Below, piece by piece: positions 37,484-46,830 of a DNA stretch of 64,000 bases (positions within the stretch are counted from its first letter, which is position 1; every line of letters starts with the position of its first letter). This DNA is from Synechococcus sp. CC9616 (GTDB taxonomy: Bacteria > Cyanobacteriota > Cyanobacteriia > PCC-6307 > Cyanobiaceae): positions 1,959,466-2,023,465 of the forward strand of contig NZ_KI911558.1 of assembly GCF_000515235.1 (NCBI RefSeq), given 5' to 3'. A program made the translations under genes and the position numbers. Below the pieces are notes generated by a model. That model saw only the letters and a list, made by a program, of their open reading frames with translations, was not told the DNA's origin and searched no databases.

Positions 37484-40066
37484 ATGCTGAGCGCTTACCG
37501 CACGCTGGCCGCCGACCGGGAAGCCCAAGGCATCCCGGCACTACCGCTCAATGCTGAGCAAGCAAAAGGCCTGACTGAGCTGCTGGAGAAGCCACCGGCT
37601 GGCGAAGACGAGGCGTTGTTGCATCTGCTCAGCGAGCGCATTCCGCCCGGGGTCGACGAAGCGGCCTATGTGAAGGCGAGCTGGCTGAGCGCTATCGCTC
37701 AGAGTGAGGTGACATCACCTCTGGTTTCCCCACTCGAGGCCACAGAGCTGCTTGGGACCATGGTGGGGGGCTACAACGTGGCGGCGCTGATCGAACTGCT
37801 CGGTCACACGGATGACAGCCTGGCCGGCTGTGCTGCCGAGGGGCTCAGCCGCAACCTGCTGGTGTACGACGCCTTCAACGAGGTGATGGAGCTGGCGTCG
37901 AGCAACCGTTTTGCCAAGCAAGTGGTCGACAGCTGGGCATCGGCGGAATGGTTCACATCCAGACCTGAGCTGGCCAGCGAAATCACCGTCACCGTCTTCA
38001 AGGTGGACGGGGAGACCAACACAGACGACCTCTCGCCGGCCACCCACGCCACCACCCGTCCGGATATCCCACTGCATGCCCTGGCGATGCTGGAAACCAG
38101 GGATCCCGAAGGCCTGGACACAATCGCCGCTCTCAGGCAGAAGGGACATCCCGTGGCCTACGTGGGCGATGTGGTGGGCACGGGAAGCTCACGCAAAAGC
38201 GCCATTAATTCGGTTCTCTGGCATACGGGCAACGACATCCCTCACGTCCCGAACAAACGAGCGGGTGGCGTGATCCTCGGCGGGAAAATCGCCCCGATCT
38301 TCTTCAACACCGCCGAGGACTCCGGCGCATTACCAATCGAATGCGACGTCACGGTTCTAAACACCGGAGACGTGATCACTATCCGGCCCCGCGCCGGCAC
38401 GATTGAATGCAACGGAACGGTTGTGAGCCGCTTTGAGCTGAGGCCCACCACGATCAGTGATGAAGTGCGTGCCGGAGGTCGCATCCCTCTGATGATCGGC
38501 CGGGCCTTGACCGACAAGGTGCGTGCCCAACTGGGACTGCCTCCGTCGGACCTGTTCATTCGCCCCACCGCTCCAAAGGACACCGGCAAAGGCTTCACCC
38601 TGGCCCAGAAAATGGTGGGCAAAGCCTGCGGTCTGCCAGGAGTTCGCCCTGGGACAAGCTGCGAACCGCTGATGACCACCGTCGGCAGCCAGGACACCAC
38701 CGGGCCGATGACGCGGGATGAAATGAAGGAACTGGCTTGCCTGGGCTTCTCCTCGGACTTGGTGATGCAGAGCTTCTGCCACACCGCCGCTTACCCCAAA
38801 CCGGTGGATCTGCAGACGCAGAAGGACTTGCCGGATTTCTTTGCCCAACGTGGCGGCGTCGCCCTACGTCCCGGCGACGGCATCATCCACAGCTGGCTGA
38901 ACCGAATGCTGCTGCCAGACACGGTGGGGACCGGTGGTGACAGCCACACCCGCTTCCCACTGGGCATCTCCTTCCCAGGTGGATCAGGCGTGGTGGCTTT
39001 CGCTGCGGCCATCGGCGCCATGCCGCTGGACATGCCCGAATCGGTGCTGGTGCGGTTCAGCGGCTCGCTTCAGCCCGGTGTCACCCTGCGCGACGTGGTG
39101 AATGCCATCCCCTGGGTGGCAATTCAGAAGGGGTTGCTCACGGTGGAGAAATCCAACAAGAAAAATGTGTTCAATGGTCGGATCATGGAAATCGAAGGGC
39201 TTCCGGATCTGAAACTCGAGCAGGCCTTTGAGCTCACCGATGCCAGCGCCGAGCGATCCTGTGCCGGCTGCACCATCAAACTCTCGGAAGAGACCGTTGC
39301 TGAATATTTGCGCAGCAATGTTTCGCTGCTGAAGAACATGATTGCCCGTGGTTACAGCGACGCCCGCACCCTGGCTCGTCGGGTTCATGCGATGGAGGCA
39401 TGGCTTGCTGACCCCCACCTCATGGAAGCGGATCAGGACGCCGACTACGCGGAAGTGATCGAGATCAATTTGGATGAACTGACCGAACCGGTGCTGGCTT
39501 GTCCGAATGACCCTGACAACGTGAAATTGCTCAGCGAAGTGAGTGGCGAGCCAATCCAGGAGGTCTTCATCGGCTCCTGCATGACCAACATCGGTCACTA
39601 CCGGGCCGCCGCCAAAGTGCTTGAGGGGTCGGGAACAAACAAGGCACGACTCTGGGTTTGCCCACCCACCCGGATGGATGAGGACACACTCAAAACCGAG
39701 GGCTACTACGCGACCTTTGAAGCTGCCGGCTCTCGGATGGAGATGCCGGGTTGTTCACTCTGCATGGGTAATCAGGCTCGCGTGGACGACAACACGACTG
39801 TGTTCTCAACCAGCACACGCAATTTCAACAACCGGCTCGGCAAAGGCGCGCAGGTGTACCTGGGCAGCGCTGAGCTGGCAGCGGTCTGCGCTCTGCTGGG
39901 GAAAATTCCAACACCTGAGGATTACCGCAGCATCGCCGCAGCGAAGATTGATCCGATCTCGAGCGAGCTCTACCGGTACCTGAACTTCGATCAGATTCAA
40001 GGATTTGAGGATCAAGGACGGGTGATGAGCCCGGATGAGGAAGCCGCTGTACTCGCCGAAGCCTGA
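37484..40066 (+). CDS. acnB: Aconitate hydratase B
   Basis: Isomerises citrate and isocitrate in the citric acid cycle. The 860-residue protein is AcnB-type, with an N-terminal HEAT-like domain (residues 1-160) and the swivel domain ahead of the catalytic domains. Motifs include [45 protein letters not shown], and cluster cysteines in SCAGCTIK-type sequence and [14 protein letters not shown]. The ATG at 37484 is used. The 3' end lies close to the ClC gene and may overlap it. Confidence 0.97.
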
Positions 40067-40079
40067 TCCAACACACCAG

Positions 40080-41528
40080 GTGCCTTCTCTGAGCGAACCG
40101 AAGCAACGACGCCATCATCTCGGCTCAAGCAGAAGCATCAGGAACCTGCTTGAGCGCCGCTGGCTGGTGGTCGTTCTTGCGCTGGCGCTCACAGGCCTGG
40201 GTGCTGCGATCACCGGGATGCTGTTCAAAGGCGGCATCAATCTCCTGCGAGATTGGCGCCTGGCCCTGCTGGATGACTTCCCTGCATGGGTGGTCCTGCC
40301 GGCACTCGGAGCCCTCGGAGGACTGGTGTCCGGTTGGTTGGTTACCAACTTCGCTCCAGCAGCAGGCGGTGCTGGCGTGACCCACATCATGGGATTCCTG
40401 CGTCACCGCTCGGTGCCCATGGGGCTGCGGGTGGGCCTGGTCAAACTGGTTGCCGGAATCATTGCCATCGGCAGCGGTTTTCCGCTGGGACCGGAAGGCC
40501 CCGCTGTCCAGATGGGAGGGTCCGTGGCCTGGCAGATGTCCCGCTGGTTGAAGGCCCCCGTGGCCTTTCGGCGCGTGATCGTGGCCGCTGGCAGCGGCGC
40601 CGGAATCGCCGCCGTTTTCAGTGCTCCGATCGGTGGTTTCATCTACGCGATCGAAGAACTGCTCCACTCAGCCAGGCCGGTGGTTCTGCTGCTGGTGATC
40701 ATCACCACCTTCTCCGCCGATACCTGGGCAGATGTGATCGGCTTCCTGGGACTCAACCCCGGCGGCAGTGGCCTGCATCAAACCCTGGGTTTTCAGCTGC
40801 AACGTGAATTCACGCCGATGGTGGACTTTCTGCCGATCGACCTGGCCTATCTGATCGCGCTCGGAGCCGTCATCGGCGTTCTGGCAGAGCTTTACTGCCG
40901 TTACGTGCTTGTGATGCAGCGCCAGGGCAACCACTGGTTCGGCAATCGGTTGATTCTTCGCATGACCCTCTGCGGACTGGTTCTGGGAGGCACCTACGCC
41001 GTGTTGCCCGACATCTTCCACAACACAACAGAGCTCAAGGTGTTGATCGCTGAAGGGAATGCAGGAATCCCACTGGCACTGGGTGGATTTTTGGTGATGT
41101 TCTTCACCACAGGACTGGCCGCCGCCTCAGGAGCACCTGGAGGGTTATTCATGCCGATGCTCACCCTTGGTGGAGCGATCGGTCTGGCCTGCGGCGGCTG
41201 GGTGGAAACGCTCACCGGTCACGTTCCCAGCACATACGTCTTTGCCGGCATGGGCGCCTTCGTCGCGGGCTGTTCGCGAACACCGATTTCGGCAATGTTC
41301 CTGGCCTTCGCTCTCACCAAGGATCTGCTCATCCTGAAACCGATCCTCGTGGCCTGTCTGATGAGCTTCGTCGTGGCAAGGCTGTTCCACCCACAATCAA
41401 TCTATGAGCGCCAGATGGGAATGGAACTGGAAGTCGAGGAGGCACTGCAGATGAGGCTGGACCGACATCGGCGCCCATTCACGCCACCACCGCTGCCGGA
41501 AAGCGGGCGGGAAGGAGGCAACCTCTGA
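40080..41528 (+). CDS. ClC-family chloride transporter
   Basis: Membrane chloride channel or proton/chloride antiporter with about 18 helical segments. The selectivity motifs are GSGFPLGPEGPAVQMGG (with the gating Glu) and GAPGGLFMPMLTLGG. The Glu pair in AIEELLH corresponds to the proton-path glutamate of antiporters. The conserved features therefore favour an antiporter. GTG at 40080 (482 residues) leaves acnB intact; ATG at 40035 would overlap acnB by 32 bases. Its stop lies within the CTG start codon of the next gene. Confidence 0.9.
   Translation: MPSLSEPKQRRHHLGSSRSIRNLLERRWLVVVLALALTGLGAAITGMLFKGGINLLRDWRLALLDDFPAWVVLPALGALGGLVSGWLVTNFAPAAGGAGVTHIMGFLRHRSVPMGLRVGLVKLVAGIIAIGSGFPLGPEGPAVQMGGSVAWQMSRWLKAPVAFRRVIVAAGSGAGIAAVFSAPIGGFIYAIEELLHSARPVVLLLVIITTFSADTWADVIGFLGLNPGGSGLHQTLGFQLQREFTPMVDFLPIDLAYLIALGAVIGVLAELYCRYVLVMQRQGNHWFGNRLILRMTLCGLVLGGTYAVLPDIFHNTTELKVLIAEGNAGIPLALGGFLVMFFTTGLAAASGAPGGLFMPMLTLGGAIGLACGGWVETLTGHVPSTYVFAGMGAFVAGCSRTPISAMFLAFALTKDLLILKPILVACLMSFVVARLFHPQSIYERQMGMELEVEEALQMRLDRHRRPFTPPPLPESGREGGNL
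41512..41518 (+). promoter_or_regulatory. Perfect Shine-Dalgarno AAGGAGG ahead of CTG start
   Basis: AAGGAGG at 41512-41518 is fully complementary to the 16S rRNA tail. Six bases separate it from CTG at 41525, which is ideal spacing. No other in-frame start follows for 60 bases. This site decides the start of the radical SAM gene. It lies inside the last codons of the ClC gene. Confidence 0.8.
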
Positions 41529-43204
41529 ACCAGGAAACACTGCTGTTTGATCCGGCAGTACCGGAACCGAATGCTCTTCGGGCTGTGCTGGCTTTCCCGA
41601 GCACCTACTCGATTGGGATCACCAGCCTGGGATATCAGGTGGTCTGGGCCACCCTCGCCCAACGCCGAGACGTGGATGTTCGACGTCTGTTCACCGATCA
41701 AGGCGACCCCCTGCACCGTCGCTGCGACCTGTTTGGACTCTCCCTGAGCTGGGAACTGGATGGACCCGTGTTGCCGGACATGCTCAACCGTCAACGGATT
41801 CCGATCTGGTCCGCAGAGCGGGGCGACAAGGATCCAATCGTGTTCGGCGGCGGTCCGGTGCTCACGGCCAACCCCGAACCTCTCGCCCCGTTCTTTGATG
41901 CCGTGCTTCTAGGAGATGGCGAACAGCTGCTGCCGGCATTCATCAACGCCCTGCAGAGCTGCCGGTCCGCCCCTCGAGAGGAACGACTGCGGTTGTTGTC
42001 GAAAGTGCCAGGTGTTTACGTCCCGGCGCTGTATATCCCCCGCTACGACAACAGCGGCCAGCTGGTGGGCGTGGATCCGATCGACGCCGATGTCCCGGCG
42101 ACCGTTGAAAAGCAAACCTGGCGAGGAAACACGCTCAGCCACTCCGCGGTGATCACCCCTGACGCTGCCTGGCCCGACATCCACATGGTGGAAGTGGTGC
42201 GCAGCTGTCCGGAACTCTGTCGCTTCTGCCTGGCCAGCTATCTAACCCTGCCCTTCCGAACGGCTTCTCTGGATGACGGCCTGATTCCTGCGGTTGAAAA
42301 AGGCCTCATGGCCACCCGGAGGCTGGGTCTGCTTGGGGCATCGGTCACCCAGCATCCGCAATTCAATGATCTGCTCCACTGGCTGGATCAGGATCGCTTT
42401 GATGACACACGCGTCAGTGTGAGTTCGGTGAGAGCCGCCACGGTGACGCCAGAGCTGGGTCGAATCCTGGCGAAACGAGGCAGTCGCTCCCTCACCATTG
42501 CGATCGAAAGCGGCAGCCAGCGCATGCGGGAGCTGGTGAACAAGAAACTCAGCGGCGAAGAGATCCAGGCGGCGGCCAGCCATGCCCATCAAGGAGGACT
42601 CAAGGGTCTGAAGCTGTACGGGATGGTGGGACTGCCCAGCGAAACCGACGACGATGTGGACGCAACAGCTGAGCTGTTGCTCAACCTGAAAACATCAACC
42701 AAGGGATTGCGCTTCACGCTTGGTGTGAGCACATTCGTGCCCAAGGCCCAGACCCCGTTTCAGTGGCAAGGTGTGCGACCGGAAGCGGAGAAACGGCTGA
42801 AACGACTGGCCAAACGTCTCAAGCCGAAAGGCATTGAATTCCGTCCGGAAAGCTATGGCTGGAGTGTGATCCAGGCCATTCTCTCCAGGGGAGATCGTCG
42901 TCTGGCCCCGGTGATTGCCGCCGTTGGTGAATCGCGAGAAAGCATCGGTGGCTGGAAGAAGGCCTACAGAGCTGCTCTCAACCATGAGCTGGACCCCATG
43001 CCAGGCCCGGAACTGCCAGCACCATCTCCCTGGAGTGATCTGGTTCAGGACACCTGGGAAGCATCAAGAATTCTTCCCTGGACCCATCTCAGAGGTCCGC
43101 TGAGTGAAGAGACACTGCGGAACCATCGTGATCTCGCTCTCGAGCGCCATGGTTCTGAAGAAAACCGCAGAGTCCGGCCAGCAGGATCCAGCCCAGAAGA
43201 TTGA
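41525..43204 (+). CDS. B12-binding-type radical SAM protein with probable CTG start
   Basis: A 559-residue radical SAM protein. The N-terminal region (LAFPSTYSIGITSLGYQVVW) is of the type before a B12-binding domain. The iron-sulfur motif is RSCPELCRFC (CxxxCxxC). KLYGMVGLPSETDDD and TLGVSTFVPKAQTPFQW are typical of the family. Substrate is unknown. The first in-frame ATG/GTG/TTG is GTG 41585, inside the conserved N-terminus. CTG at 41525 has a perfect AAGGAGG six bases ahead (41512-41518) and overlaps the ClC stop as CTGA. Its 3' end overlaps the next gene by 116 bases. Confidence 0.85.
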   Translation: MNQETLLFDPAVPEPNALRAVLAFPSTYSIGITSLGYQVVWATLAQRRDVDVRRLFTDQGDPLHRRCDLFGLSLSWELDGPVLPDMLNRQRIPIWSAERGDKDPIVFGGGPVLTANPEPLAPFFDAVLLGDGEQLLPAFINALQSCRSAPREERLRLLSKVPGVYVPALYIPRYDNSGQLVGVDPIDADVPATVEKQTWRGNTLSHSAVITPDAAWPDIHMVEVVRSCPELCRFCLASYLTLPFRTASLDDGLIPAVEKGLMATRRLGLLGASVTQHPQFNDLLHWLDQDRFDDTRVSVSSVRAATVTPELGRILAKRGSRSLTIAIESGSQRMRELVNKKLSGEEIQAAASHAHQGGLKGLKLYGMVGLPSETDDDVDATAELLLNLKTSTKGLRFTLGVSTFVPKAQTPFQWQGVRPEAEKRLKRLAKRLKPKGIEFRPESYGWSVIQAILSRGDRRLAPVIAAVGESRESIGGWKKAYRAALNHELDPMPGPELPAPSPWSDLVQDTWEASRILPWTHLRGPLSEETLRNHRDLALERHGSEENRRVRPAGSSPED

Positions 43205-45292: not shown

Positions 45293-45742
45293 ATGCTGAA
45301 CGCCCTGCGCCGTTTCGCTGCGTTCTGCCTCTGCATCGCCCTCTCTCTGGGAGTCCTCGCGCCGGCAGAAAGCCATGCGGACACCGCCAAACCCGAAGAC
45401 ATGGCCGTGATCCGTCGCCAGGCGGAAGCGTTCATGAGTGCCGAAAAACGTCTGCCGGAACTGGCCAAGCTGGTGAGCGACGAGAACTGGGTTTTCACGC
45501 GCAACCTCATCCACGGTCCTTTGCAGGAAGTGGGGAGAGAAATGCTGTACATCAATCAGCGTTTGAACCGATCGGAGCGCAAACAGGCAGACAAGCTGGC
45601 CCGATCCCTGAAGACAGCGCTCGCCGAACTCGATGAAGCATCCCGGCTTCAGGATCCAGCCAGGATGCAGCGGGCCTACAGCGCTGTGGCGGCAGGCTTC
45701 GATGCCTATTCCGATGTGATTCCTGAAGAGGCGCTCAGCTGA
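45293..45742 (+). CDS. psbQ: Photosystem II PsbQ-like protein
   Basis: Lumenal extrinsic subunit of photosystem II that stabilises the oxygen-evolving complex. The 149-residue product has an N-terminal signal (FAAFCLCIALSLGVLAPAESHA), then a four-helix protein with NWVFTRNLIHGPLQEVGREM and RMQRAYSAVAAGFDAYSDVIPE, both typical of CyanoQ. There is no lipobox cysteine near the cleavage site, unlike many cyanobacterial PsbQ lipoproteins, so it is probably soluble in the lumen. Its stop codon overlaps the CTG of the next gene. Confidence 0.9.
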   Translation: MLNALRRFAAFCLCIALSLGVLAPAESHADTAKPEDMAVIRRQAEAFMSAEKRLPELAKLVSDENWVFTRNLIHGPLQEVGREMLYINQRLNRSERKQADKLARSLKTALAELDEASRLQDPARMQRAYSAVAAGFDAYSDVIPEEALS

Positions 45743-46830
45743 ACCAGTCGATCGCCGTTGTCGGTGCCGGTGTCGTTGGCGCCGGCACCGCCTGGCATCT
45801 CGCCCAATGCGGCTATTCGGTCTGTCTTTACGACCCAAGACTTGGTGCGGCGGTCGATTCAGACCAGATCAACGGGAATCGGAACGGAACCAGTGCCTCC
45901 CTAGGGGTGCTGATGGGTCACGTTTACCGACGACACAGCGGTCGTGGCTGGCGATTGAGACAGCGAAGCATGGCCCTTTGGCCGCAATGGATCAAAGCCC
46001 TGCAGACCTTTGAACCTGATCTGCGGCTTCAGAGCCCCCTGATCCAGCTGGCCGATGACGACGACGTTCTGAAACGGATGCAAGGCCTGGTTGAGCGTCG
46101 CAAGGGCCTTGGCCTGCAGCTGATTCCAGCAATGGATAATCCCGTGCCCTGCCTCGGTGGGTTGAGCTCCTTACGGGACGGCCGGCTCGAACCATTGATG
46201 CTGCAACGTGCCCTTCGTCTGGCCATGGCCACTGTTTCCGTCCAGCAACACCCAGCAAAGGTGCGAAACCTGAAACGAACCGGAACGAACGGTGACCCAC
46301 GCTGGCGTGTCGAAACCGGTGAAGAGAGTTGCCAGGACTACGAGGCCGTTGTGATCTGCACGGCTCTCAACAGCGATGGGTTGCTGGCTCCATTGGGCCA
46401 CGAGCGACCCATGACCCCGGTGCTTGGCCAGGTCATCGATCTTGAGCTCAAGGATGGGCCTTCGAACTGGAAGAACTGGCCGGCGGTGCTGAGCGTCCAG
46501 GGCTTCAACCTTGTTCCAAAGCAACCGGGTCGTCTGCTGCTTGGAGCCACCTTGGAGCCTGGAGCCGAAGCCGACCCAAGTGCTCTCAAGCTGATGCTCG
46601 ATCGCCTTGGTTCGACGCTGCCATGGCTCAAGTCAGCCACCCCAGTCGAGCATTGGTGGGGCCTGCGGGCAAGGCCTGTCGATCGGCCTGCACCTCTCCT
46701 TGAACAGCTGGAACCAGGCCTGCTACTGGCGTCTGGCCACTACCGCAATGGTGTGTTGTTGGCGCCAGCCACGGCGGAATGGGTACAGAAAGGCCTGAAT
46801 CGTTCATCCGCGATGTTTACCAGTTCTTAA
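45739..46830 (+). CDS. FAD-dependent (DAO-type) oxidoreductase with probable CTG start
   Basis: A 363-residue flavoprotein of the D-amino-acid-oxidase type. The FAD motif is VVGAGVVGAGTAWHLA at residues 7-22 of the CTG-started frame, and the C-terminal marker is HYRNGVLLAPATAEW. Substrate is unknown. Upstream stop TGA is at 45724, and no ATG, GTG or TTG lies before the GxGxxG motif; the first ATG is at 45907, past it. CTG at 45739 is preceded by GAAGAGG and overlaps the psbQ stop as CTGA. Start calls at 45907 would remove the FAD-binding site. Confidence 0.8.
   Translation: MNQSIAVVGAGVVGAGTAWHLAQCGYSVCLYDPRLGAAVDSDQINGNRNGTSASLGVLMGHVYRRHSGRGWRLRQRSMALWPQWIKALQTFEPDLRLQSPLIQLADDDDVLKRMQGLVERRKGLGLQLIPAMDNPVPCLGGLSSLRDGRLEPLMLQRALRLAMATVSVQQHPAKVRNLKRTGTNGDPRWRVETGEESCQDYEAVVICTALNSDGLLAPLGHERPMTPVLGQVIDLELKDGPSNWKNWPAVLSVQGFNLVPKQPGRLLLGATLEPGAEADPSALKLMLDRLGSTLPWLKSATPVEHWWGLRARPVDRPAPLLEQLEPGLLLASGHYRNGVLLAPATAEWVQKGLNRSSAMFTSS

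Follow-up and report, generated by a model that had tools for sequence, protein, structure and literature searches.

Bacterial gene finding usually accepts only ATG, GTG and TTG as start codons. Among the departures from this set, the non-canonical AUU start of infC acts as an autoregulatory device, the product of the gene being IF3. Initiation at CUG is very rare in bacteria: figures quoted in PMC9845219 put it at 20 annotated ORFs, or 0.024 %, across the genomes of 69 model bacteria. Two sets of findings count against an easy use of this codon, namely that CUG complexes in E. coli are less stable than those formed on AUG, GUG or UUG, as reported in PMC11497404, and that the activity of CUG reporters was undetectable in tobacco chloroplasts and in E. 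coli in the assays described in PMC9845219. Stop-start overlaps of the ATGA and TGATG type, in turn, characterize termination-reinitiation pairs, and coupling has been reported to be strict in 13 of 14 overlapping gene pairs tested (PMC6728339).

Here we analyze a start region in a window of 64,000 nucleotides (the whole stretch of DNA under analysis), in which a DAO-family FAD-dependent oxidoreductase (45739..46830, on the + strand, as are all window features given below) appears to start at CTG 45739..45741. We put at about 0.9 the probability that this CTG is the true start, that the same holds for CTG 41525 in a second gene of the window and probably for two further genes of the genome, and that these starts are old and have been kept by descent and selection. 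The arrangement resembles rare bacterial CUG initiation in its putative CUG start and in the ordinary initiator tRNA of the genome, and departs from it in that several such starts appear to be conserved over many genera of one family. With termination-reinitiation pairs it shares the four-base stop-start overlap, the -1 frame and a Shine-Dalgarno-like motif ahead of the start, whereas the start is here a CTG that persists in relatives lacking the overlap. As in infC, the start codon would be conserved and deliberately weak, but the infC product is IF3 itself, while the products here are enzymes, for which regulation of this kind would be hypothetical. Evolutionarily conserved non-AUG starts are also described for chloroplasts, and plastids are relatives of cyanobacteria; the native case tested there (psbC), however, uses GUG (PMC9845219). 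Among the open-licence papers retrieved, no title or abstract describes conserved CTG starts in Synechococcus or Prochlorococcus, though such a description may exist elsewhere.

The gene upstream of the oxidoreductase is psbQ (45293..45742), encoding the photosystem II protein PsbQ (TIGR03042, 172.2 bits against a cut-off of 106.9; PF05757). Its TGA stop (45740..45742) overlaps the proposed start as CTGA (45739-45742), and the oxidoreductase lies in the -1 frame relative to psbQ. On its upstream side the oxidoreductase frame is closed by a TGA (45724..45726), after which the open frame reads AGA GGC GCT CAG CTG AAC CAG TCG ATC GCC GTT GTC up to the GxGxxG codons (45763..45780), which we take to be the dinucleotide-binding motif. 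No ATG, GTG or TTG stands in this frame between the TGA and the motif, and the genome scan described below likewise found no canonical start in frame at the right place for 45739; the first canonical codon is GTG 45907, 56 codons past the CTG, and a start there would cut off the FAD-binding motif. The sequence GAAGAGG (45725-45731) precedes the CTG with a spacer of 7 nt, its GAGG (45728..45731) resembling a Shine-Dalgarno sequence and at the same time encoding PsbQ residues. These readings bear out an earlier note on this DNA, which had proposed a start at CTG 45739 written as CTGA across the previous stop, preceded by GAAGAGG and with no ATG, GTG or TTG between the stop at 45724 and the FAD motif; the start itself receives strong support from conservation in relatives. 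The position given there for the GxGxxG motif, from 45760, needs correction, as the first GGT of the motif stands at 45763.

The predicted protein matches PF01266 over almost the full profile (E 1.2e-46, residues 5-349, profile positions 2-350 of 353). Its score against the glycine oxidase ThiO model (TIGR02352) is 118.9 bits, under the cut-off of 250.8, so that we name it only as a DAO-family FAD oxidoreductase. A search of genome contigs returned three distant relatives only. A strong GC-rich hairpin spans 45760-45795, about 20 nt past the psbQ stop and over the GxGxxG codons, and the predicted fold of 45690-45830 (z -2.47) consists mainly of this hairpin.

Conservation in relatives, including that of the CTG where no psbQ overlap exists, is what goes beyond chance in the comparison of these genomes. 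Among 34 genomes of the genus, two (G011, G016) have no clear orthologue and two (G019, G024) were not fetched, leaving 30 loci for examination, all of which carry CTG at the oxidoreductase start place. They comprise 29 loci (the window's own included) in which psbQ ends in CTGA, the oxidoreductase follows in the -1 frame and the CTG stands 8 codons before GxGxxG, together with the locus of G008; the CTGA overlap is present in 30 of 30. Mutation of C to T in the final psbQ codon (AGC or AAC), although silent, would turn the CTG into TTG, and it is seen in 0 of the 30. The single locus from another genus in this first set (G035) reads CTAA, that is, CTA at the place of the CTG.

That the protein starts further downstream instead, from a GTG close to GxGxxG or from an uncommon start such as ATT or ATC, with the CTG as a conserved second or third residue or a product of chance, seems to us quite unlikely. 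A GTG does stand two codons before GxGxxG in 11 of the 30 genus loci, and ATC and ATT are present nearby, but that GTG is absent from 19 of the 30 and from the window gene, and a downstream start would be expected to delete the first strand of the fold, the Pfam DAO match beginning at residue 5. The CTG is, moreover, kept in AT-rich genomes despite being a rare codon there.

The comparison outside the genus covers 141 oxidoreductase start regions from 38 genera (142 were prepared; L198 was dropped, its motif missing, and the short matches L107 and L108 were left out), drawn from genomes that gave a match; one search matched 282 of 300 family genomes, part of which were fetched. psbQ lies upstream with an in-frame CTGA at codon -8 in 54 loci and with an in-frame CTGA at another distance in 25; it ends in an out-of-frame CTGA in 16, is out of frame and accompanied by a separate CTG at -8 in 3, and ends in an out-of-frame TTGA in 2, an in-frame GTGA in 2 (one genus) and an in-frame CTAA in 1. 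The other loci are psbQ-less, in the sense that tblastn found no psbQ in about 700 bases upstream, the genome itself possibly still having one: 11 of them (9 genera) have CTG at -8, 25 have a canonical start and no CTG at -8, and 2 (G083, G132) have neither. The 3 separate and the 11 psbQ-less CTGs weigh most, because the codon there stands outside any psbQ stop. A CTG kept both in the absence of psbQ and at loci with a broken overlap needs more than the overlap to explain it, and these loci indicate that overlap with psbQ is not required everywhere.

The start CTG of the 11 psbQ-less genes is kept in coding sequence in which CTG makes up 12 of the 120 leucine codons of the fetched parts. Between codons -22 and -5, CTG alone is found in 9 of the 38 psbQ-less loci, a canonical codon alone in 25, both in 2 and neither in 2, indicating near mutual exclusion of CTG and canonical starts (Fisher p 1.6e-5; 7, 10, 2 and 0 when counted by genus and state, p 7e-4), in a test whose codon range was picked after the data had been seen and which still contains the relatedness between loci. 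The CTG is thus either kept or replaced by other start codons, with exceptions in G035, G083 and G132. At the level of sequence, the position of the CTG, its conservation, its replacement by other starts at or near the same place and its independence from the overlap can be regarded as established. The three exceptional oxidoreductases, L034 (G035), L064 (G083) and L194 (G132), lack CTG at the usual place as well as any canonical codon between -22 and -5, and it is possible that they use another unusual start codon.

The 141 start regions also bear on the idea that CTGA is kept only through a C-ending psbQ codon followed by TGA, the overlap being coincidental and the start lying elsewhere, which we consider very improbable. 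In the sampled genome C precedes 128 of 205 TGA stops, for which reason a conserved CTGA at loci with psbQ counts for little on its own, and psbQ also ends in CTGA out of frame (the 16 loci above); yet CTG occupies the place in 14 loci outside any psbQ stop, and parallel CTG starts are seen in other genes. Still harder to credit is that the oxidoreductase constitutes a C-terminal extension of PsbQ reached by -1 ribosomal frameshifting, with the CTG as one more codon of the fusion: none of the 30 genus loci departs from the exact -1 offset, as frameshifting would have it, but the CTG is kept as well in the 11 loci where no psbQ was found and in the 3 with psbQ in another frame relation, and no slippery heptamer was seen by eye at the psbQ end. 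Loss or misreading of an ATG, through sequencing error or decay into a pseudogene, has a negligible probability, for nothing specific to it was found beyond the missing start codon that is its usual sign, and the arrangement recurs with an open frame in 30 of 30 genus loci, where full-length matches are 54-80% identical and have no inner stop.

Under initiation at CTG 45739, translation would start with the initiator tRNA, and insertion of fMet is to be expected. Ribosomes finishing psbQ at its TGA would set on the overlapping CTG behind GAGG, and synthesis of the oxidoreductase would probably be partly coupled to that of PsbQ wherever psbQ lies upstream. Given the weakness of CUG initiation in the systems examined, output of the enzyme would likely be low and linked to psbQ.

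The second proposed CTG start of the window belongs to a B12-type radical SAM protein (41525..43204), which satisfies PF19864 and PF04055 and scores 264.6 bits against TIGR03960, under the cut-off of 462.3. Its CTG (41525..41527) overlaps the stop of an upstream CLC chloride-channel gene (40035..41528; PF00654, E 9.5e-70) as CTGA, AAGGAGG (41512..41518) lies 6 nt ahead of it as a Shine-Dalgarno-like sequence, and a GTG stands 20 codons past it. This case, the second of the two mentioned in the earlier note, draws strong support from conservation, the start position being CTG in 56 of 57 loci and TTG in one, across 23 genera. In 23 of the 57 loci (18 genera) no ORF of at least 60 codons ends in an overlapping TGA, a situation found for the CTG of the FAD gene in 14 loci, and in five AT-rich genomes an in-frame stop stands one or two codons above the radical SAM start. 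On our reading, 19 of 20 class-level relatives from other families show a canonical start a little ahead of where the CTG would lie, at 22 to 29 codons upstream of the anchor (in the exception, G042, the nearest upstream canonical start is an ATG at -38), and the CTG start therefore probably arose in the window's family. On these comparisons the radical SAM case is stronger than that of the oxidoreductase.

The two window starts share the 9-mer CTGAACCAG, which occurs 9 times in the window against 1.03 expected. Taken alone, this sharing means little; since seven of the 9 places lie outside the two starts, the excess probably reflects favoured codons.

Further candidates came from a scan of 464 kb (the window and 20 stretches of 20 kb), in which a crude gene caller predicted 276 genes, 43 of them lacking a canonical start codon where coding begins or close to it. 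Inspection covered those 30 of the 43 whose gap is longest, which include both window genes and two more with good family matches, a metallophosphatase (L174:8909-9766; G000:C1, about 658909) and an M16 peptidase (L176:9706); the remaining entries, judged by eye in this genome alone, appear to be spurious or to have a plausible canonical start slightly downstream. Searches for relatives matched 28 of 30 genomes in each case. At the metallophosphatase start position, 29 loci show CTG in 21, TTG in 4, ACG in 1 and other codons in 3. The locus with ACG (L324, in G104) has an open frame free of canonical starts up to the motif. For the M16 peptidase we read CTG at the start position in 20 of the 28 loci that could be anchored, out of 29 given, and an ATG seven codons upstream in 15; in 6 of these 15 (G000, G021, G107, G104, G090, G064) an in-frame TGA follows the ATG, which makes it unusable as a start there and leaves it usable in the other 9, so that the M16 peptidase appears to be the weaker and less clear case. 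Extrapolation to the genome of 2.65 Mb yields between about 13 (from two in 400 kb) and about 23 (from four in 464 kb) putative CTG-start genes, 13 being the fairer figure because the window was chosen for the finding itself, and itself resting on a small sample of two genes, the weaker M16 case among them.

As a control on codon usage we compared the start column with all conserved-leucine columns in relatives of low G+C (0.29-0.42, the other radical SAM loci ranging from 0.49 to 0.71). The control covers the radical SAM protein, the metallophosphatase and the M16 peptidase; for the FAD oxidoreductase, which stands outside it, about 300 bases of the gene were fetched. The start column reads CTG in 12 of 12 radical SAM, 9 of 11 metallophosphatase and 8 of 10 M16 rows, against 3/12, 2/11 and 3/12, respectively, in the next best leucine columns and a mean CTG share of 4.3 to 4.4% in the others. 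In a quick tree of the radical SAM protein, a rough one given its long branches and skewed composition, the terminal branches of the AT-rich rows are 0.2 to 0.8 changes per column long, and the start of the FAD gene requires 3 changes between CTG and canonical codons over the rows counted. The family comprises genomes of 1.4 to 4.1 Mb, with small AT-rich ones among its members, and CTG initiation looks like a stable feature of this cyanobacterial family.

The earlier note had read the two window cases as a genome-wide pattern of CTGA coupling. A wider pattern is supported as far as CTG starts as such are concerned, with two more conserved candidates in 400 kb; as a rule of coupling it finds no support in a search of the 464 kb for CTGA overlaps. 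Of the 17 CTGA junctions whose CTG is read in the frame of the following gene, 15 offer a canonical start within the range from 4 codons before to 19 codons after the CTG, and the exceptions are the two window genes, the radical SAM gene being counted as one with its GTG 20 codons after CTG 41525 taken as too far. The genome contains the pattern GGAGGN{4,8}CTGA 206 times and its reversed form 73 times. CTGA junctions were nonetheless set aside as a genome-wide signal, given that C before TGA is common and that 15 of the 17 junctions have a canonical start near them.

Shine-Dalgarno complementarity is good for the radical SAM gene within the genus, moderate there for the FAD gene and poor elsewhere, judging from the upstream regions compared. 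In all 30 genus loci the oxidoreductase match is 4-5 nt long, a length of 4 or more being attained by about 24% of random 15-nt stretches; among the other loci with the overlap it is 3 nt in 23 of 24. For the radical SAM gene, 23 of the 30 loci of the genus show a match of at least 5 nt, but beyond the genus 14 of 27 loci lack one of even 3 nt. The poor matches outside the genus led us to discard the Shine-Dalgarno sequence as the cause of CTG use. A relaxed initiator tRNA was discarded as well, the anticodon stem encoded at L276:1472-1548 being ordinary, with the usual GGG/CCC pairs. The base next to the start codon is A in all 57 radical SAM loci (the TTG locus included) and in 14 of 14 FAD loci with CTG outside the psbQ stop, as it does in 18 of 25 psbQ-less loci with a canonical start. 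Extended pairing of CUGA with the initiator tRNA was rejected on the grounds that the base after CTG varies in the metallophosphatase (T, A, C), and extended start-codon pairing of this kind is described as largely excluded in E. coli in PMC9841429.

Since the oddity recurs in three further genes and across many relatives, the CTG start of the oxidoreductase looks like a real, overlooked signal rather than an error. A broader reading, to which we assign somewhat less than even odds, is that CUG serves as a regular fourth start codon of the whole family, with perhaps 13 to 23 genes per genome held to it by selection, deliberately weak, maybe responding as a group to initiation fidelity (changes in IF3 level, for instance) or to termination upstream, and shortened in present annotation. 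If CTG starts are conserved family-wide, some predicted proteins would miss their N-termini, active-site motifs included. The genes concerned would also form a natural set for studying what makes selection retain a weak start codon and how CUG comes to be accepted by ribosomes that use an ordinary initiator tRNA.

One sign of such missed N-termini is the curated NCBIfam model TIGR04168, which lacks the GDxHG motif of metallophosphatases. Its position 1 aligns at residue 24 of the metallophosphatase read from CTG; that residue is encoded by a TTG, the earliest canonical start of the gene, 23 codons past the CTG. The motif (GDLHG) lies within the part that the model omits, and Pfam Metallophos covers the protein from residue 4, an alignment that suggests that TIGR04168 was built on shortened proteins. 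As a minor observation on the M16 peptidase, a stretch resembling AGAATGGAACTTTG precedes its CTG (L176:9680-9710) in many relatives (L288-L315); because its ATG runs into an in-frame TGA in six of these genomes, the stretch may be non-coding, acting as a regulatory leader or promoter.
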